Assembly: GCA_029571125.1 (NCBI GenBank)
Contig: JAKPTH010000283.1
Span: forward strand, 1 to 50,963
Reading direction: 5' to 3'
Length of the DNA stretch: 50,963 nt
DNA from: a bacterium
GTDB taxonomy: Bacteria; Muiribacteriota; UBA9980
Part shown: positions 1,925 to 35,413 of the stretch, piece by piece
How positions within the stretch are numbered: the first letter of the stretch is position 1
Layout: every line of letters begins with the position of its first letter
Made by a program: the position numbers and the translations under genes
The notes under the pieces: model-generated
Database searches by the model: none
Told to the model about the DNA's origin: nothing
The model's input: the letters and a program-made list of their open reading frames with translations, nothing else

Positions 1925-4027
1925 CTAGCTTATCTCTTCTTCCTTCAATAAAGACGACATAAATTTGTAATACTTGCTCTGAAGCGACATAAGGTTAAGA
2001 AAATGCTTAACCTGATTTGCGTCGAGGTTTGAAATGGTTATATTGACTTTCTGATGGTCTTTTGACGGTTCGACCGTCACGTCGTCCAACTTAAAAACCG
2101 ATTTTATGCGTTTTTTTATTATAGCCGAATTTTCCTTGAGAAGAAGCGATATGGTTTCGCTGACTTCTCTCGCCGCAGGGCTTTCTTTGATAAAAGGCTT
2201 TTCGGCCGGAGAGCCGTTGAACTCGCCCGGAAGTTTTACGGATTTTTTATAATCGTTCAAAGCCTGCGAAACTTGAGGCGCGGCTTCTTCGCCGGGGCTT
2301 TCGCCCTGCGTTTCGTCGGGAGCGAATTCGCCGGGAAGCTTTAGCTGCGATTTTTTTCCGGATTTTAATTCGGCGGATATTATTTCGACCTTCAGGCCTT
2401 TTTCTTTCGGAAGCGTTTTCGGCTGCGGAATTTTTTCGGCTGCGGGCGTATCGGAAGGCTGCGCCGCGATTACGTCCTTTTCCGCTCCGGCGTCCGGGCT
2501 TTCAAGGCCAGTTCCGTCCTCTTCAATTTCGAAAGTCTCTTCCGCGCCCGAAAGGCCAGGCGTCTGCTGGACTTCTTTTTGAGAAATATAGCCGATGAAC
2601 CAGCCTCTTGTTTCGTAATCGAAATCGCTGAGAATGGCAGTTTCCTCGCCTGAAAGGCTTTTTGAAATATACAGACAGTAATTTTTTATGAACGACTGCA
2701 TTAATGTAGTCGTGTTCGTAAAATATTTATTTGATTTTAAAAAAGAGTAGGAGTTTTTGAGCTTATTCTCGTCGTCGCATTCCCATCTGTAAATGGCCAT
2801 GGCATTGAGAAAGGAATCCGTGAAATCTTTAGTAGGGAACTGGGGAACTATAAAGGCGTTCAAATGGTAATCGTAGTCGCCCTTTCCCTTGCCCGGAACG
2901 AGGATTATATCAGGATAGCCGTACATTTTGACTTTCTTGTTGTCGAAAAAATCAGGGTCCAGCTCCATAGTGCCTTCTATAAGCTGAAACATCTGCTGCG
3001 GAATGTTTTTGACTATGCCCTGCGTGAGAAATATCACCGGCTCTATCTTATTGCTCCTGGATATGACTTCAATAATATTTTTTATGGCCGATATTCTTTC
3101 CTTTAAAAAATCGTCTTTTTCTTCGTCTAATATTTCCTTTTTTGAATATATGAACTCTTCGATTTTTTGCCTGCTTTTACCTATTAAAGTTACATTGTCG
3201 AAAATTTCATGCTCTTTCTGTATGATCATATCCTCGAGAAAATAAAGGTTGGCGATATAATCCTGGTTGAGGCCCGGCCTGGACTTGCAGAACCGCTTTC
3301 TTTCTTCGCGGGTTTTATTGATCTGATTTTCCAGATTGACGAATTCCACGCGCTCGTCTTTCTTGAGCAGGAGCTCGTTTTGTATGCGCGATCTGAGCGC
3401 GCCGTATTTTTCGAGCGCCTCGTCCACTTTTACGTTGTAGGCAAGAAGTTTGTCTACATCGGCGCGGGCTATATTTTTAGGAGGATGTTCGGAAAAGCTT
3501 TTATCCAGTTTTTTCTTTGACTCTATAACGACGAGTTTTTCATCCCTTAAATTATTTACAGTCGCCACGAGCGCTTCATATTTTTTTTCGTATTCCTTAA
3601 GCTTATTGACGCCCATAAAATCCTGAAGCTGTTCATAAAGCCAGGAAGATATGGAGAAGCATTTTACCGGGCAGCCGCTTTCGGCGGCGGCGGCGACGCT
3701 TTCGGACAGCGATTCGGGGGTTATAGCGTTATTTTCGCCCAGCAGTTCGTCAGAAATATATCCGAAATCAATCGCCAGTTTTTCACTGTCGCTGAAGTGA
3801 AGCTCGCCCGTAGATAAAAGCCGTTTTTTAACTATAAAAAAGACCATATCCCAGTACTGGCTGTTTAAATACCTTATGTGCGCGATATTCGAAGGGTTGG
3901 CGTTAAAGCTGGCTATCGCTGTTTTAATATTATTTTTAAACGCCACGGCTCTTTCCGAGTGATCGGTGGAAAAAATATCGTCGAAAATTTTATTCGTCGC
4001 CATAGTCAGCTCCATTAACGATTTCAT
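1925..4027 (-). CDS. Second paralogue of the unrecognised coiled-coil family (soluble N-terminus, Pro/Glu-rich linker, C-terminal ~70 aa domain)
   Basis: 700-aa ORF; shares 'RSNKIEP...YGYPDIILVPGKGKGDYDYHLNAFIVPQFP...AMAIYRWECDDE' with neighbours; likely start at internal MATNKIFDD (~4003). Confidence 0.85.
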   Translation of the reverse strand: MKSLMELTMATNKIFDDIFSTDHSERAVAFKNNIKTAIASFNANPSNIAHIRYLNSQYWDMVFFIVKKRLLSTGELHFSDSEKLAIDFGYISDELLGENNAITPESLSESVAAAAESGCPVKCFSISSWLYEQLQDFMGVNKLKEYEKKYEALVATVNNLRDEKLVVIESKKKLDKSFSEHPPKNIARADVDKLLAYNVKVDEALEKYGALRSRIQNELLLKKDERVEFVNLENQINKTREERKRFCKSRPGLNQDYIANLYFLEDMIIQKEHEIFDNVTLIGKSRQKIEEFIYSKKEILDEEKDDFLKERISAIKNIIEVISRSNKIEPVIFLTQGIVKNIPQQMFQLIEGTMELDPDFFDNKKVKMYGYPDIILVPGKGKGDYDYHLNAFIVPQFPTKDFTDSFLNAMAIYRWECDDENKLKNSYSFLKSNKYFTNTTTLMQSFIKNYCLYISKSLSGEETAILSDFDYETRGWFIGYISQKEVQQTPGLSGAEETFEIEEDGTGLESPDAGAEKDVIAAQPSDTPAAEKIPQPKTLPKEKGLKVEIISAELKSGKKSQLKLPGEFAPDETQGESPGEEAAPQVSQALNDYKKSVKLPGEFNGSPAEKPFIKESPAAREVSETISLLLKENSAIIKKRIKSVFKLDDVTVEPSKDHQKVNITISNLDANQVKHFLNLMSLQSKYYKFMSSLLKEEEIS

Positions 4028-4790
4028 CGAATTTATCGCCCACGCGCTTTTGTATAGAGGCGTTTTTATCCCTGACGCCTTTTTCGAATTTATCGAGCGC
4101 TATAGATATTTCTGAAGTGGCGCTTTCATAGGGCGTTTTCGACATCAATACTTTTTTCTGAATATCGAGGGAAGTTAAAAAAGCTTTAAAAAGACCGTCG
4201 AATTTATCTTTGACGCGGCCGGCCTCCAGGCCGTAATAATCTATATGCTCTTTCTTCAAAACCGAGAGCATCGATTTTAAACTCTGCGCTCTTTGCGGAT
4301 CGGAACTTTTGCTTATGCCGCGCTTGATTTCGGCCAGCTCCGACTTGTGGCGGGAGAAAGCCCTGCCGAGGCACTGCGCATACCGGGCGTTGGCTGAATC
4401 CACGGCGTTTTTTAATTCCTTTTTGAATTTATCTATATCGTCAGCCAGAGCCGAATAAATCTGCATATATTCCACTTCGCCAGTCGCGTCTTTAAAAAAA
4501 TTAATGTTTAAAATATCTTTTTCAAAAGCCCTGTCTATAAGCGCGGCTGAAGCGGCCGGGCGGACGGCTGCGGGCCTCTTTTTTTCTTCAGGCGCCGAAG
4601 CCGCATTTACATTGGGACGAACTGCGCCGCGGGCTTTTTGCGGCGCCGCTTTGACGGCGCCCGGCTTTCGGGCCTGCTGCGCTTCGGCCGGAGCTGGCGA
4701 AGCGCAAAAGAAAGCCAGCGCGAAAGGTAAAAAAGCTGCGGCAGATAACCGCGGCAGTTTTCCTGCTTTATTATCGAAGAAAAATCCCAT
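3990..4790 (-). CDS. Secreted or periplasmic coiled-coil protein of unknown function
   Basis: 266-aa ORF with signal peptide-like N-terminus (LPRLSAAAFLPFALAFFCASPAPAEA), overlapping the start of the downstream paralogue. Confidence 0.7.
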   Translation of the reverse strand: MGFFFDNKAGKLPRLSAAAFLPFALAFFCASPAPAEAQQARKPGAVKAAPQKARGAVRPNVNAASAPEEKKRPAAVRPAASAALIDRAFEKDILNINFFKDATGEVEYMQIYSALADDIDKFKKELKNAVDSANARYAQCLGRAFSRHKSELAEIKRGISKSSDPQRAQSLKSMLSVLKKEHIDYYGLEAGRVKDKFDGLFKAFLTSLDIQKKVLMSKTPYESATSEISIALDKFEKGVRDKNASIQKRVGDKFDEIVNGADYGDE

Positions 4791-4836
4791 AAATTCCTCC
4801 GTTTTAAATGAGCGTAAATTAACTAAATCTTAAAAA

Positions 4837-6177
4837 CTATTTAATAAGCTCGCTGAATTTTTGCAATTTCGATTGTATCAGAAGCGTGTTTAATATAAGG
4901 TCGAGTTCTCCGCTGGTAACGTTGATGTTGAGCAAATGTATGTTCACCGCTTCGGCGTTCTTGGGCGACGGCAGAATCGCCAGCTTATCGCCGACGTTTT
5001 CCGATTTTATGATGGCTTTTATCTTGCTGTATATAAGGCTTCTCGCAACGTTAAAGCGTTCCTCAACGGGCACCTGCGAATAGTCGACGGCCGACGGCGC
5101 AGCCGCGCCCGCCTGCGAGGAAGTTTGAGCGGAACCCGGGGAATTTTTAAGCTCCGAATTTTCTTTTTTGAGAGCTTCGATTTCTTCCCGGAGCGCCTTT
5201 AGCTGCTCTTCGAACAAAGCCCGCGTGTCAAAATCGCCGTCGCCGCCTTCCTGAAGCGCCTGCTCGCCTCCCTGAGATTCTATTTTAGAAAAAGCCTCAG
5301 TTTTGAGCTCTTCATAATTTTTAATTTTAAGCAGCTCGGGCCCGTTTAATTTAAGATATCCGTTGACGGCGCTTAAAACTTCAGACGCGGCTTTATAATC
5401 GAGCTCGGCCTTTATGGCTTCGGCGTACTTTTGCTGAAGCTCTCCTTTAACCTTCTCGGCTTCGTTTTTAAGCTTTTCGGCCAGTTCTTTAGCGGTGTTA
5501 GAATCCGCTGCGGCCGTTTTCAGCATTTCGCCGAGCTTCACTTTCGCTTCGGCTATTTTAGCGTCTTCGGCCGCCTTGGCTTCGTTGGCCCGCGCCGCTT
5601 CGTTTTTGGCGAGACTTTTTACGGTTTCGGCTTCGGCCTTGAGCTTTTCAAACTCGGCCTTTTTGCTTTCAAAAGCTATTTTAGCCTCGTTTTCGGCTTT
5701 GGCAGCTTCGGCCGCCTTGACGGTGGCTTCCATCGCTTTTCCAGACGCTTCGGCGGCTTTCACCATAAAGTCGGCCTTCACCGACATATCCGCGCGGGCC
5801 GCCTCCACGGATTTATTGGCCGCCTCTTCCGACAGGCGCGCCGCTTCCGATGCTATCTGGATGGCTGCCTCGTGCGCTTCGTTAAGGGCTTTTTCGGCGT
5901 CCTCCAAGAGTTTTGCGGCTTCGTCCCTTTTCATTTCGGCTTCCGAGGCTTTAGCCATTATTTCGCCGACCCTGTCTTCCGGTTTTTGAGAGCCGAGGCC
6001 GGATTTCTTTTCATGCTTCGCCTCGCCGTGTTTTAAAACCTCGAACTCGACGACCTCGTCTTTTTTGGGCGCCACCTGCCATGTAAACCAGTCTCTTATT
6101 TCTTTGTCGAAAAGCTTATAGCCCTTGAGCTCCTTGGTGATATATATGGTGAAATCCTTAATGAGAGCGCGCTGCAA
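4837..6177 (-). pseudogene. 3' fragment of the third paralogue: Ala/Glu/Lys-rich coiled coil plus C-terminal domain, separated from its 5' part by a frameshifting tandem duplication
   Basis: Track ORF starts on an internal TTG inside duplicated sequence (MQRALIKDFTIYITKELKGYKLFDKEIRDWF...). C-terminal domain resembles the C-terminus of the 1925-4027 product. Deleting one 311-bp duplicate makes 4837-7805 exactly 2658 bp (886 codons). Confidence 0.75.
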
Positions 6178-6229
6178 ATCGACGAACGATAATTTTTTAT
6201 AAGGCTTGAGGCTGTTATAAGCTTCGCGG
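5915..6229. repeat. Imperfect direct tandem repeat, copy 1
   Basis: Begins gcggcttcgtcccttttcatttcggc and ends gctgttataagcttcgcgg; about 22 mismatches over 315 bp against 6226-6540. Confidence 0.95.
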
Positions 6230-7805
6230 CTTCGTCCCTTTTCATTTCGGCCTCGGAGGCCTTCGCCATTATTTCGCCGACCCTGTCTTCCGGTTTTTGA
6301 GAGCCGAGGCCGGATTTTTTTTCGTGTTTCGCCTCGCCGTGTTTTAAGACCTCGAATTCGACGACCTCGTCTTTTTTAGGCGCCACCTGCCAGTTGAACC
6401 AGTCCCTTATTTCCTTGTCGAAAAGTTTATAGCCTTTGAGCTCTTTAGTGATGTATATGGTAAAATCCTTAATGAGAGCGCGCTGTAAATCGACGAACGA
6501 TAATTTTTTATAAGGCTTGAGGCTGTTATAAGCTTCGCGGAATTCCTTGTCTTCGTCGCAATCCCAGCGATATAGCACCATGGCCGAAATCACGGATTCC
6601 TTGAAATTGGTGAGCGGAAAAACAGGCACTATGAAAGAATTATAATCGTAACTGTAAATGGCGTTTCCGCAGCCGGGAACGAAAATGACCGACGGATAGC
6701 CGAACCTCTTGAATTTTTTAGTTTTAAAAACGCGGGGATCGGCTTTTAAATATTCACAAAGCGCTTCTATTATCATATCGGGGATGCGCGGCGATATTTT
6801 TTCGCTCAGGCAGGGCGTGGGCTCGATCTTATTTCTTTTAGAAACCAGCTCGAACATATTTTTTATATAAGTTACGCGGTCGTTTATGAAATCTTCTTTT
6901 TTAGAAGCCGGAGTTTCGTTTTTAGCGACTATGAAGCTTTCCAGGTCCGCTTTAGCCTTCGCCAGACCGGAAACCAATCCCAGCAATTCTATTTCGTTTT
7001 CTATAACGTTGTCTTCATATTTGCAAAGATCGTTATTGAGCCCGGCAAACGATTTTATGAGCTCTTTTCTTTCGTTGCGCGAAGTGTTTATCTCGTTTTC
7101 AATGTTTATAAGCTCGAGGCGCTCCTCTTTGGAAAGGGCCATTCCCGAATTGCCCTTAAATTTAAAGAGGGAATATTTATTGGTATTCTGGTTGATCTTT
7201 TCGGAAAGGTTATAAATCCTCAAAAAAAGCTGGGGGTTGTTCAGCTGCCTTCCGATGCTCGCCAAGACCTGTTTTTTAAGCATCACGTTGTCTTCGATGC
7301 TCTTCTTGTATTCCTGGGTTTTATTTACCTTGGCGTCGTATTCCGTGCGCAGCTTCTCTATTTCATATATGCCCATGAATTCTTTGAGCTGCTCGTTGAG
7401 CCAGTCTGTAATGCTGTAAAATTTTATTTCGATATCGTTGATGCGTGTGGATGAATCGAAAACATCGTCTATGCCTTCAAGAGAGAATTTTTCACTCGAT
7501 TTCGCCACCATATCGGAAACGTATCCGTAATTTACGGCCAGAAGCTCGTCGTTCGAAAAAGTCATCGGCGAGGCGCCTTTAGTGGCCGCCACCTTTTTTT
7601 TCAAAACGTACGTGATTAAATTCCAGTATGCGTAATTAAGCGAGCGCTTCGCGAAAGGATCGCGAGTATTAGCCAGATGCTTGGATATATTGGAAATCAT
7701 ATCGTTTTTGATTTCCGCGCACTTATTGTCAGAACCTTCGTTTTCCAACAGCTTGTCAAGGATTATGTCGTTAATTTCACTGCCCATATCACTCACGTCT
7801 TTCAT
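6096..7805 (-). CDS. 5' part of the third paralogue, truncated by frameshift after the duplicated segment
   Basis: Family core 'KRNKIEP...FGYPSVIFVPGCGNAIYSYDYNSFIVPVFP...AMVLYRWDCDED'; after 'DEAAKL' the frame becomes ITASSLIKNYRSS..., an out-of-frame reading of the repeat. Confidence 0.75.
   Translation of the reverse strand: MKDVSDMGSEINDIILDKLLENEGSDNKCAEIKNDMISNISKHLANTRDPFAKRSLNYAYWNLITYVLKKKVAATKGASPMTFSNDELLAVNYGYVSDMVAKSSEKFSLEGIDDVFDSSTRINDIEIKFYSITDWLNEQLKEFMGIYEIEKLRTEYDAKVNKTQEYKKSIEDNVMLKKQVLASIGRQLNNPQLFLRIYNLSEKINQNTNKYSLFKFKGNSGMALSKEERLELINIENEINTSRNERKELIKSFAGLNNDLCKYEDNVIENEIELLGLVSGLAKAKADLESFIVAKNETPASKKEDFINDRVTYIKNMFELVSKRNKIEPTPCLSEKISPRIPDMIIEALCEYLKADPRVFKTKKFKRFGYPSVIFVPGCGNAIYSYDYNSFIVPVFPLTNFKESVISAMVLYRWDCDEDKEFREAYNSLKPYKKLSFVDLQRALIKDFTIYITKELKGYKLFDKEIRDWFNWQVAPKKDEVVEFEVLKHGEAKHEKKSGLGSQKPEDRVGEIMAKASEAEMKRDEAAKLITASSLIKNYRSSICSALSLRISPYISPRSSRAISFSTKK
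6226..6540. repeat. Imperfect direct tandem repeat, copy 2 (offset 311 bp; 4-bp gcgg overlap at the junction)
   Basis: Hand alignment to 5915-6229; outer 26 bp and 54 bp identical, interior diverged. Confidence 0.95.
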
Positions 7806-14578: not shown

Positions 14579-15847
14579 TTACCAGAAAACGTAAAGAAGA
14601 AAACTTAAAAATCCCGCTATTACGAATAACATACTATACCAGAAATTAGCTATTTTTGCAAGTACGCTTTTCGCCCCCGCGGTTTTTTTATTGTTCCACA
14701 TCTCGCCGGCTTCTTTTCTGCCGGAAGCTTTAGTATTAAAGTTTTTCAAGCCTGTTTCGGATACCTGATTTTCAGCCGCGTTAATTTCGCCATCCGCCGC
14801 CGCGCTTTTCTTTCCGAATAAAATGGCGTAAGCGTCGCCGTCGTTTTCGGCCTGAAACCTGGTTGCGGCGCCCGGAGCGTTATTGGCAGAATCGGACGCG
14901 GCCGGCTTTTTTTCCGGGCCTCCGAAGGAAGGTATTTTAATATCTATGAAATTTTCGCCGGCCTTATTTTTAGCGCCGTCGGCTTTGCGCGGCGCGTGAG
15001 GCGTTTCTTCTGCCTGTTTCATGAATTTAGAAGGATCGACCTGCATGGAAGACAGGACGTCGGTTTTGTTTATCTGGTCCGAAACGAATTTTACGAGAGC
15101 GTCGAGAAGCTCGTCTATGGACTGATACCTCGAGGAAATATCGCTGGTGACGCATTTGAATATTATATTTTTAATAGCTTCGAGCTGCTGCGGCCCTATA
15201 TTTTTAACGTTGTCCGAATCGAGCCTGAAATCCTTCACCACTCTCATATTTCTAACGCTCAGCCCGTCCGCCTCGAACAGGGGCTTATGGGTAAGAAGCT
15301 CGTAAAAAAGGCATCCCGTAAAGAAAATATCGGAGCCCACGGAGGAAATTTTATTTTCAAAATCCTTGTTGGATATGACGTCGCGCGGTATGTGGAACTG
15401 AAGTATCTTTATCTTGCCGCTAGCCTGATAAATTATATCGGAATATGTAAGCGAACGGTATTTCACGTTTTCGCGCAGCGCCTGCCCGAAAGCTCTGGTG
15501 AGCTGGGTTATGATATTGATTATCTGGGCCAGAGAAAGCTTTTCGCGTTCCTTTAAAATGGCGTGCAGGCTCTTTCCTTCGACATGCTCGGAGGCCACGA
15601 AGAAAACGTCCTGGTAAAAATCTATGTCGTATATTTTCAAAAACAGCGGCGAATCGAGCGCGGCCATAGTCTGGAACTCCTGAGTATAGCGCTGGACGAA
15701 ATCGGGATTTTTAAGGCGCCTCTGCTTTAAAGTCCTTATATTGATGTTCACTACCGGCTCTTTCACTGTCTGCGCGAGAAAAAGCATCACTTTTTCGTCT
15801 TCGTCTATCTTTTCGAGCAGTTTATATTTATCTTTCAGCAGTTTCAT
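14579..15847 (-). CDS. Protein kinase-fold protein with degenerate active site (predicted pseudokinase), C-terminal TM anchor
   Basis: Kinase-like layout (YKLLEKI..., ASEHVEGKSLHAIL, SVGSDIFFTGCLFYELLTHKPLF) but no Gly loop (IDEDEKVMLFLA), VAIK Lys replaced (INIRTL), HRDLKPxN -> YRSLTYSD, DFG -> QFH. C-terminal FWYSMLFVIAGFLSFLLYVFW. Confidence 0.85.
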   Translation of the reverse strand: MKLLKDKYKLLEKIDEDEKVMLFLAQTVKEPVVNINIRTLKQRRLKNPDFVQRYTQEFQTMAALDSPLFLKIYDIDFYQDVFFVASEHVEGKSLHAILKEREKLSLAQIINIITQLTRAFGQALRENVKYRSLTYSDIIYQASGKIKILQFHIPRDVISNKDFENKISSVGSDIFFTGCLFYELLTHKPLFEADGLSVRNMRVVKDFRLDSDNVKNIGPQQLEAIKNIIFKCVTSDISSRYQSIDELLDALVKFVSDQINKTDVLSSMQVDPSKFMKQAEETPHAPRKADGAKNKAGENFIDIKIPSFGGPEKKPAASDSANNAPGAATRFQAENDGDAYAILFGKKSAAADGEINAAENQVSETGLKNFNTKASGRKEAGEMWNNKKTAGAKSVLAKIANFWYSMLFVIAGFLSFLLYVFW

Positions 15848-17052
15848 CTTTTAACACCTACCTCTATATCTTTAAAGAAAACGTTGTCCAGATAAACGAG
15901 CACTTTCATCGCTCCGTAACCGTTGACGCTCAGGTCTATCTCTTCGCCGGGGTAATGAGGGTTCTTATAAATCTCGCGCGGCCCCATGTCGTCAAGCAGA
16001 ACCATCTTGACTTCACGGCTTTTCTGGCCGGGAGGGACTATGAATTTGATGATTTCGACTTTTTTTACCGCGTCGCCGCTTCCGGCTTCGACCAGGGGTT
16101 TAGCCGCGGCGGCCGGGGCTTCGGCGGTCTTTTCGCCGCGGGTTTCGATCAATGGAAGCGGAGCTTCCTTGCTGCCGGCGTCTATTTTAATCACGTTGCT
16201 TTCGCTGGATTCCATTTTAACGCCGTCCGTTTTTATTATTACCGCGTCCTTGTTTTCTTCGGGCTTCGCGGCGTCGGAATTTTCGCATACTATGAAATTG
16301 ACCGGAGTTTTATCGGCGACGCCGCTTCCTGCGGCGGGTTCCTGGGCCAGAACGATTCCCGAAGCAGTGCCTTCTTTTTTCTCGTATCCTATCTTGCCGA
16401 GGTCGAGGTTAATTTTGCTCAAAACGATCTTTACGGCCTCGATGCGCCTGCCTATGAAATTAGGCATTTTAACGGTCGAATTGGCCTTGCCCTGCGATAC
16501 CAGAAGGTCTATCTGGGCGCCTTTCGGCGCGGGCTTGCCGCCTTCGGGCGTCTGTGAAATTACCGTATCCACCGCAACGCTTTCCGAAAATATATACGAT
16601 TTTTTGCCTATCAAAAAGCCTTCTTTTTGTATAATGAACGCCACGTCGCGCAGGTCTTTTCCCGTGATATCCGGGCAGTCTATGGTTTTAGCGCCGAGCG
16701 AAAGTATTACTTCCATCACGCGGTTGGCTTTTACTATGGTGTCGGGAGGCGGATCCTGGGTTATGATGCAGCCTTCGGGAATGTTGTTGTCGTGCTTTTT
16801 ATCCTTTATGTCCAGCTGCAGCTTGCACTGCTTGCAAAGCTCGAACGCGTCCTCGATGCGCACCGGCATTCCGTCCTGCGAAACCAGGTTCGGCACCTTG
16901 GTCTCCTCCTTGTTGAAAAAGGAGTTCATCATTTTAATCGAATACATTTTAGCGAACTGGAAAAGTATCACGAAAAATATTATGAATATCAAAAATTTTA
17001 ATAACGCGATAAGAATATTTCCTTTTACCGCTCTGGATTGTGTGAATCGCAT
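15844..17052 (-). CDS. Membrane-anchored PASTA-domain protein (about three PASTA repeats)
   Basis: N-terminal TM (ILIALLKFLIFIIFFVILFQFA); repeats KVPNLVSQDG..., DCPDITGKDLRDVAFIIQKEGF...VISQTPEGGKPAPKGAQIDLLVSQG, KMPNFIGRRIEAVKIVLSKINLDLG...VLAQEPAAGSGV. ATGA overlap with the kinase-like gene. Confidence 0.92.
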   Translation of the reverse strand: MRFTQSRAVKGNILIALLKFLIFIIFFVILFQFAKMYSIKMMNSFFNKEETKVPNLVSQDGMPVRIEDAFELCKQCKLQLDIKDKKHDNNIPEGCIITQDPPPDTIVKANRVMEVILSLGAKTIDCPDITGKDLRDVAFIIQKEGFLIGKKSYIFSESVAVDTVISQTPEGGKPAPKGAQIDLLVSQGKANSTVKMPNFIGRRIEAVKIVLSKINLDLGKIGYEKKEGTASGIVLAQEPAAGSGVADKTPVNFIVCENSDAAKPEENKDAVIIKTDGVKMESSESNVIKIDAGSKEAPLPLIETRGEKTAEAPAAAAKPLVEAGSGDAVKKVEIIKFIVPPGQKSREVKMVLLDDMGPREIYKNPHYPGEEIDLSVNGYGAMKVLVYLDNVFFKDIEVGVKR

Positions 17053-34293: not shown

Positions 34294-34322
34294 ATAATAA
34301 CATAAAAAAACGCGTATGTCAA
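34294..34322 (-). promoter_or_regulatory. Sigma70 promoter of the DEAD-box helicase transcript (TTGACA-N17-TATTAT), overlapping the upstream gene's stop codon
   Basis: Reverse complement reads TTGACA tacgcgtttttttatgt TATTAT. Confidence 0.88.
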
Positions 34323-35413
34323 CATATTTGATATTCAACCGCTTTTTCCCTTAAGCGGCGGTACTTATAAACGAGTTCGGCGCGGTCCAGCTTTTCATCG
34401 CCCCATGAAAGCGCAGGAATGCCCGACAACGCCGCGGCGCCCGATTCGAAAGCGGATATGACCCTGTCGGCTTTTTTTAAAGTTTCAAGCGTGCAGCTGC
34501 GGCCGCCCACATCGTCGTGTATATCGAGGATATATGAGCGCAACGATTCGAGCGCATATAATTTTTCAAGCGCGGCGTGGTTTTCCAGCCCATTTTCCCA
34601 CAGCCCGATAATGCCGGTCTTCCAGTTTATTATGCCCTGATCGGCGCGGTTCGATCTCAGCCAGCTCAAAGTTCTGTGATAATATTCGACGGCCAGCTCT
34701 TTTTCCATGCGGTATTCTTCAAGCGCCGCAGCGCGCCCTTTTTCATCTTCGATATCCATGAGGTACTGCATGAAACTGCGCGTCTCGAACCTTTCTACCG
34801 GATGAAAGAGCGGCAGCTCCATTCCGTCGGCGTTATATTCGCCAAGCGGCGAAAAAGGATACATATATCCGAAATCAAAGAGCTTCACCGTCCCGTCTTT
34901 TTGCGCAAGTATATTGCCGGGGCAAAGGTCGTACTCGAACAGTCCGGCGGTTTCTATATGAAACAGCGTATCAAAAAGATTCGAAATTATCTGCGGCGTG
35001 TACTTTTTAACGGTTCCGCCCTCGATCCACGGTGAAACTATTATGCCGTGCTTAAGGCTCGCGTACACGGTATCGACGACTCCCGCAAAAGCCGCGGGGT
35101 TTTTCTTTTTAAGCGTTTCAAAATCACGTCTGCGCTGGACTTCGTTTAAAAACGAAGTCTGGCCGTCGGCGTTTTTAACCAGTATTTCTGCGCGCTTCTT
35201 TTTAAGGTTCCAGCGGCGGCCGCCGGCGGCGATCATGAAAGTATCGGCCGTCAATCCGCTGCCGATACGCTTTTCGACGCAAGACGAACGTTCGTTCACT
35301 TCGAGAAGTTCCGGCAGGCTTATCGGAAGCAGCGAAGCGTCTCCGGCTTCTATATCGCTTCCGGAGGCTAAAAATTCGAGCTGCTTATTTCTTCTAATAT
35401 CGGCATGTCCCAT
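34319..35413 (-). CDS. Protein-kinase-fold phosphotransferase (APH/RIO-like), catalytic motifs retained
   Basis: RIGSGLTADTFMI, FEYDLCPGNILAQKDGTVKLFDFGYMYPF. Confidence 0.7.
   Translation of the reverse strand: MGHADIRRNKQLEFLASGSDIEAGDASLLPISLPELLEVNERSSCVEKRIGSGLTADTFMIAAGGRRWNLKKKRAEILVKNADGQTSFLNEVQRRRDFETLKKKNPAAFAGVVDTVYASLKHGIIVSPWIEGGTVKKYTPQIISNLFDTLFHIETAGLFEYDLCPGNILAQKDGTVKLFDFGYMYPFSPLGEYNADGMELPLFHPVERFETRSFMQYLMDIEDEKGRAAALEEYRMEKELAVEYYHRTLSWLRSNRADQGIINWKTGIIGLWENGLENHAALEKLYALESLRSYILDIHDDVGGRSCTLETLKKADRVISAFESGAAALSGIPALSWGDEKLDRAELVYKYRRLREKAVEYQIC

Follow-up and report, generated by a model that had tools for sequence, protein, structure and literature searches.

The rlmN-rpe interval and its two proteins

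The window, by which we mean the whole 50,963-nt stretch of DNA analysed, belongs to a genome of 4.87 Mb in 725 contigs that is ~94% complete. We identified the minus-strand gene order coaBC-priA-def-fmt-rsmB-rlmN-PASTA-pseudokinase-rpe-wecG-mfd. The stretch from rsmB to rpe is as described in the original prediction and recurs across the phylum. The two central open reading frames (17052-15844 and 15847-14579, both on the minus strand) and their ATGA overlap were also found where they had been placed, and the sensor and kinase-like halves are thus separate polypeptides. The genes and their features are as follows.

15844..17052 (-): PASTA protein gene, 402 aa, with an N-terminal anchor, three PASTA repeats, a linker and a C-terminal Ig-like domain
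16948..17022 (-): N-terminal transmembrane anchor of the PASTA protein (residues ~11-35; hydropathy maximum 3.27; model helix 7-46)
16699..16899 (-): PASTA repeat 1 (PF03793, 28.2 bits)
16492..16677 (-): PASTA repeat 2 (PF03793, 47.6 bits)
16288..16473 (-): PASTA repeat 3 (PF03793, 39.6 bits)
15859..16065 (-): C-terminal Ig-like domain of the PASTA protein (residues 330-398; six strands in the model, pLDDT 60-74)
15844..15847 (-): ATGA stop-start overlap of the PASTA and pseudokinase genes, sequence ...GTTAAAAGATGAAACTG...
14579..15847 (-): tail-anchored pseudokinase gene, 422 aa (open reading frame, Pfam, NCBIfam and profile search)
15062..15847 (-): pseudokinase domain, residues 1-262 (Pfam and alignment; dN 0.025, dS 0.474)
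15734..15736 (-): R38 in place of the ATP-binding beta-3 Lys (VAIK) (alignment)
15437..15460 (-): YRSLTYSD in place of the catalytic loop HRDLKPxN (alignment)
15392..15400 (-): QFH in place of DFG; the activation segment after it is shortened (alignment)
15293..15337 (-): helix F motif GSDIFFTGCLFYELL, kept (SDIFFTG) (alignment)
14672..15061 (-): cytoplasmic linker of low conservation with short conserved motifs (conservation, dN/dS)
14582..14644 (-): C-terminal tail anchor of the pseudokinase, residues 402-422

Pfam identified PASTA in three stretches of the upstream protein (E=1.7e-30). The three PF03793 repeats and the N-terminal hydrophobic helix bear out the earlier description of a membrane-anchored protein with about three repeats. 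The best NCBIfam family is PknB_PASTA_kin (NF033483), matched at profile positions 336-562, in the second half of the profile. When the sensor profile was compared with PDB sequences, the S. aureus PrkC ectodomain came top (7.6e-31) and the M. tuberculosis PknB ectodomain was weaker. The same PrkC ectodomain (3py9) was the top fold match of the AlphaFold model of the sensor (E 9e-3, probability 1.00, 77 columns), a match that rests on the Ig-like domain, the model being confident only near the N-terminal helix and at residues 330-398. In PrkC, the ectodomain combines three PASTA repeats with one Ig-like domain (PMC3601408). The C-terminal beta domain of the PASTA ectodomain is kept across the phylum.

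The downstream protein matches Pkinase in Pfam (E=3.5e-15, residues 39-247). Its best NCBIfam family is also PknB_PASTA_kin, matched from profile position 4 on, in the first half. The alignment agrees with the motif state read earlier for this protein (no glycine loop, R38, YRSLTYSD, QFH, and helix F SDIFFTG kept), and the predicted C-terminal membrane segment is present as a hydrophobic tail anchor at residues 402-422.

The alignment comprised 36 family members, 10 PASTA kinases and 35 further kinase domains from the phylum. None of the 36 pseudokinases has the HRD Asp, the DFG Asp or either glycine-loop glycine, whereas all 45 other domains keep both Asp residues. The spacing from DFG to helix F is 18-25 residues in the pseudokinases versus 38-44 in the 45 domains that keep the HRD and DFG Asp, and the activation segment is halved in the family. 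The beta-3 Lys is retained in 29 of the 36 pseudokinases and is Arg in the genus of the window. Residues that support the fold are retained (alphaC Glu, 33/36; DFG Phe, 36/36; helix F Asp, 34/36), and the metal-ligand position is Asn or Asp in 35 of the 36. Family-specific residues were also identified: Glu16 within the one-time glycine loop (35/36), a new invariant Asp76 (36/36), Pro154-Arg155 after the one-time DFG (32/36 each) and Phe176 in helix F (36/36). The motif set of the family is mostly xxIK / xRxIKxSN / xFxxPR. We conclude that the kinase-fold protein of the window is a pseudokinase, CATALYTICALLY dead as judged from its sequence. The fold may still bind a nucleotide, because the beta-3 Lys, the alphaC Glu and the metal-position Asn or Asp survive in most members. 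AlphaFold models of both proteins, from 4- and 3-sequence alignments, had pLDDT values of 32 and 38, which are too poor to judge pockets or interfaces and of no use for the kinase domain.

Conservation and relation to PASTA kinases

We compared 40 genomes of the GTDB phylum that holds the Wallbacteria. The pseudokinase was matched in 39, and the sole genome lacking a match is only 70% complete; the best match per genome is typically 350-460 aa long. The PASTA gene lies directly upstream on the same strand in all 38 contigs that show both genes, rpe follows the pseudokinase in 33 of the 34 contigs long enough to show it (the exception is G029), and rlmN or rsmB is directly upstream of the pair in 31 contigs. 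The C-terminal hydrophobic helix of the pseudokinase and the N-terminal one of the PASTA protein are conserved in full-length copies. Repeated in this order throughout the phylum, the pair is not a chance feature.

In comparison with the copy of ADurb.Bin243, from the same genus, dN of the kinase domain (0.025) is far below dS (0.474), which shows purifying selection on the domain; the linker is less constrained (dN 0.18, dS 1.18). Homologues with restored catalytic motifs had been named as a possible sign of sequence error, and none of the 36 aligned members restores them. This result and the dN/dS values rule out a sequencing error or a local pseudogene. Homologue search, alignment and locus comparison also correct the view of the split as local: the split and the catalytic loss extend across the phylum and, as far as these comparisons indicate, their presence is old and vertically kept. 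Physical coupling of the two proteins was not evident from a mirror-tree analysis, in which the distance correlation (0.49, with rpe and rlmN removed) was not clearly above that of control gene pairs (0.42 and 0.44).

When the pseudokinase family profile was compared with PDB sequences, the best matches were the S. aureus PrkC-type kinase, StkP, PknB and PknA (149-121 bits), followed by PknE (87 bits) and the next kinases (78 bits). The NCBIfam PknB_PASTA_kin profile matches all 25 pseudokinase members tested. Mean domain-profile scores were 138 bits for PASTA kinases and 108 bits for phylum kinases; converse profiles do not discriminate (18/36). In a tree, the 36 pseudokinases cluster together (SH-aLRT 100), separately from the 35 phylum kinases. 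This tree has three clean groups and is unrooted, and it does not settle whether PASTA kinases or phylum kinases are the sister group.

The two proteins of the window score 116.6 and 108.5 bits against NF033483, below its curated cut-off of 450 bits. In PASTA kinases the PASTA repeats and the kinase domain occur in one polypeptide; here there are two open reading frames, with three extracytoplasmic PASTA repeats on the separate protein. The beta-3 Lys, HRD Asp and DFG Asp of PASTA kinases are replaced by R, S and Q. Together, the results support the proposal that the rlmN-rpe interval holds a PrkC-related module that is probably non-catalytic. Its origin is not explained by simple fission of a PrkC gene, because the sensor gene precedes the kinase gene whereas in PrkC the kinase domain comes first; a lone PASTA protein ahead of rpe is, besides, common in other phyla. 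A rearrangement, or a duplication with reciprocal loss, would probably be needed.

Signalling genes elsewhere and the locus in other phyla

The original prediction considered stp and rsgA to be missing from the canonical rlmN-rpe position. Both are absent from this locus, but both are present elsewhere in the genome: rsgA on contig C271 (7546-8298; TIGR00157, 170.7 bits) and a PP2C Ser/Thr phosphatase on contig C276 (10134-10730; a 254-aa protein). These genes rule out genome-wide loss. We also identified several intact Hanks kinases, all lacking PASTA, and six FHA matches. With the phosphatase, rsgA and intact kinases in the same genome, loss of the phosphatase is not supported as a companion of lost phosphotransfer. 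Phosphosignalling very likely exists in this cell, though not via the pseudokinase gene, because active Hanks kinases, a PP2C phosphatase and FHA matches are encoded.

A search for a hidden intact PASTA kinase found none over the NCBIfam cut-off (450 bits) in the genome of the window or in the 39 other genomes of the phylum; in a wider sample, 9 of 287 genomes have a PASTA kinase above this cut-off. Apart from the sensor, one PASTA protein was found in the genome: a penicillin-binding protein on contig C699 (L084:4837-6996, plus strand), with a transpeptidase domain, a dimerisation domain and one PASTA repeat.

Several other features were noted. Genomes G029-G032 have very many Hanks-kinase candidates (81-354 per genome at first look), and genome G001 has, on contig C204 (L083:3107-14096), a near-tandem cluster of three large kinase proteins of 1298, 947 and 865 aa. 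Within the window, a 364-aa protein (34319-35413, minus strand) has what looks like an intact DFG motif and weakly matches the ABC1 atypical kinase-like family (6.8e-5, slightly short of the cut-off). At 5909-6519 there is a 300-nt tandem direct repeat of 92% identity, where two overlapping open reading frames of 569 and 446 aa have a stretch in common; either a genuine duplication or the assembly may account for it.

The loci examined outside the phylum were those that the sensor profile matched best, a sample biased to loci that resemble the sensor of the Wallbacteria phylum. Among 79 such loci, 76 were scored as a PASTA protein with no detected kinase domain, with rpe within 300 nt in 54 of the 76, and 3 as fused kinases. 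One locus counted as a stand-alone PASTA protein in this tally (L157:4865-6862, minus strand) is, on closer reading, a fused degenerate kinase: its N-terminus is kinase-like but very degenerate (Pkinase E=0.006), and it has three PASTA repeats and ends in an Ig-like domain. A further 20 outside loci yielded one more fused kinase. Locus L164 has the Bacillota-like order rsmB-rlmN-stp-PASTA kinase (655 aa)-rsgA-rpe. Two others (L230:2520-5106; L233:3014-5261, minus strand) have PASTA-rsgA-rpe and no kinase, an arrangement that falls between the Bacillota order and PASTA-rpe. The long N-terminal extension at L162 seems to be an artefact of the open frames of GC-rich DNA and was set aside.

Fused PASTA pseudokinases were found in two further phyla. 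Three (L243, L261 and L262) are from one phylum, with HRD changed to HGQ or HGL and DFG to DFF, DFY or DFQ; L243 has homologues in two further genera. The L243 protein (3110-5179, plus strand; 689 aa; HGQ and DFF) lies in the order fmt-rsmB-[gene]-rpe, and its C-terminal domain aligns with the Ig-like C-terminal domain of the PASTA protein of the window. The only outside genome in the sample with a split pair is G123 (L199:2826-3977, minus strand), the single sampled species of its phylum, in which rsmB-rlmN-PASTA is followed by a tail-anchored degenerate pseudokinase.

Function and comparison with known systems

The architecture, the lost catalytic residues, the conservation, the co-occurrence and the purifying selection lead us to propose that the pair is an ancient, vertically kept, non-catalytic receptor-scaffold of the PrkC/StkP/PknB type that reports the state of peptidoglycan (probability about 0.6). 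We infer that the ligand is peptidoglycan, that the two proteins pair physically and that the output is a scaffold. By analogy with other PASTA proteins, the extracellular ectodomain, with its three repeats and Ig-like cap, would bind peptidoglycan precursors, fragments or lipid II. The pseudokinase, held in the same membrane by its C-terminal tail anchor and made in tandem with the sensor, would be the inside half. The signal could reach the kinase-fold domain via membrane pairing and ligand-driven clustering of the two anchors, and the kinase fold, with its docking surface and flexible linker, might then serve as a scaffold for cell-wall or division proteins, with no phosphate transfer. It counts against this proposal that, in most other phyla sampled, no kinase partner was detected beside the PASTA protein. 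The motif losses point to signalling without phosphorylation by the kinase-fold protein of the window.

Phosphorylation of the pseudokinase by another kinase is a serious rival, although we consider it unlikely. A separate active Hanks kinase would phosphorylate the pseudokinase or its linker, an FHA protein would be recruited, and the PASTA protein would set the timing; MviN of M. tuberculosis operates in this way (PMC12599244, PMC3601408). The active kinases, the PP2C phosphatase and the six FHA matches of the genome fit such a scheme, but no phosphosite or FHA protein is tied to the window locus, the linker is poorly conserved between genera, and kinase-rich genomes commonly have FHA proteins. 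The pseudokinase might instead be an allosteric receptor subunit, its N-lobe pairing with a soluble active kinase and activating it, and three proteins would together reconstitute a PASTA kinase. PknB-type kinases are known to dimerise through the kinase fold, and the genome does encode intact Hanks kinases lacking PASTA. MviN also forms dimers (PMC12599244); however, an active kinase gene occurs at the locus in no genome of the phylum, and a conserved partner kinase was not traced across it, which makes this arrangement quite improbable.

Residual or altered catalysis, in which the fold binds nucleotide and performs other chemistry, is suggested by the surviving beta-3 Lys (29/36), alphaC Glu (33/36) and metal-position Asn or Asp (35/36) and by the invariant Asp76. 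Such chemistry has precedents, as SelO AMPylates and SidJ glutamylates. Nevertheless, no member has either catalytic Asp or the glycine loop, the activation segment is only half as long, and in the genus of the window the Lys is lost too; we regard this reading as very improbable. It seems hardly credible that only the PASTA protein functions and that the pseudokinase is a decaying relic: kinase-less stand-alone PASTA proteins are common in other phyla, but occurrence in 39 of 40 genomes in a fixed order, family-specific invariant residues and dN far below dS contradict it.

Beyond the receptor-scaffold proposed for the window, a wider claim seems to us evenly poised. The phylum as a whole would have a non-catalytic PASTA system, with a peptidoglycan-sensing ectodomain and a tail-anchored pseudokinase encoded by separate neighbouring genes (ATGA-coupled here), and elsewhere the system would be fused and active, fused and dead, or a sensor alone. 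The ectodomain would then be the retained core and kinase activity dispensable. In Gram-positive bacteria, from which they are mainly known, PASTA kinases have a central part in regulating cell-wall growth. A phylum that keeps the sensor and the kinase fold but drops catalysis suggests that selection can act on a receptor-scaffold role by itself; its dead PASTA pair is a natural case of separation of function. The locus states (fused active, fused dead, split dead, sensor alone) form a testable evolutionary series.

We found no description of a split non-catalytic PASTA system in the literature searched: the phrase 'PASTA pseudokinase' has zero occurrences among the 5.39 million papers covered, and a search for PASTA pseudokinases or kinase-less PASTA proteins gave nothing on point. 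A 2025 review of bacterial pseudokinase families covers ActPs1-3, GLW, CP1, DYD, DLHK and the EssB type; it does not list the family described here or mention Wallbacteria, and PASTA appears only in a reference title (PMC12599244).

EssB/YukC of type VII secretion is likewise a membrane-anchored pseudokinase with a degraded glycine loop and a shortened activation loop. The pseudokinase of the window differs in its PASTA partner and in its nearest relatives in the profile search, and none of the locus neighbours (fmt, rsmB, rlmN, rpe) is a type VII secretion gene. MviN-FhaA is an example of a bacterial pseudokinase in wall control, phosphorylated by another kinase (PMC12599244). The C-terminal pseudokinase of mycobacterial MviN/MurJ (ActPs3) is tied to peptidoglycan metabolism in the literature and, like the protein of the window, has an activation-loop deletion and is membrane-associated, here by a C-terminal segment. 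Its motifs are VALT / Lsidhpsr / Y-- (PMC12599244 Table 1), a set that the window family does not have. The protein of the window also lacks fusion to a lipid II flippase (MurJ-type), being 422 aa with one C-terminal anchor, and no PASTA partner is described for MviN in the literature examined.

The stand-alone PASTA proteins of other phyla, between fmt or rsmB and rpe, have the same ectodomain in the same place before rpe, but no adjoining pseudokinase gene was detected except in G123. The fused PASTA pseudokinases (L243, L261, L262 and L157) share PASTA repeats and a kinase domain lacking the HRD Asp, and L243 and L157 also have the Ig-like end and fmt or rsmB neighbours. They differ in being single polypeptides in PrkC order, with the APE region kept in L243, L261 and L262. 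Unlike the PASTA kinases (PrkC, StkP, Stk1, PknB), the window pair consists of two polypeptides in reverse order with two anchors instead of one, has no catalytic motif and only half the activation segment, and has stp and rsgA elsewhere. Its kinase domain has its best PDB and NCBIfam matches among them, and it shares with them the three PASTA repeats and Ig-like cap seen in S. aureus PrkC, the membrane topology, and the rlmN-rpe interval, as at L164.
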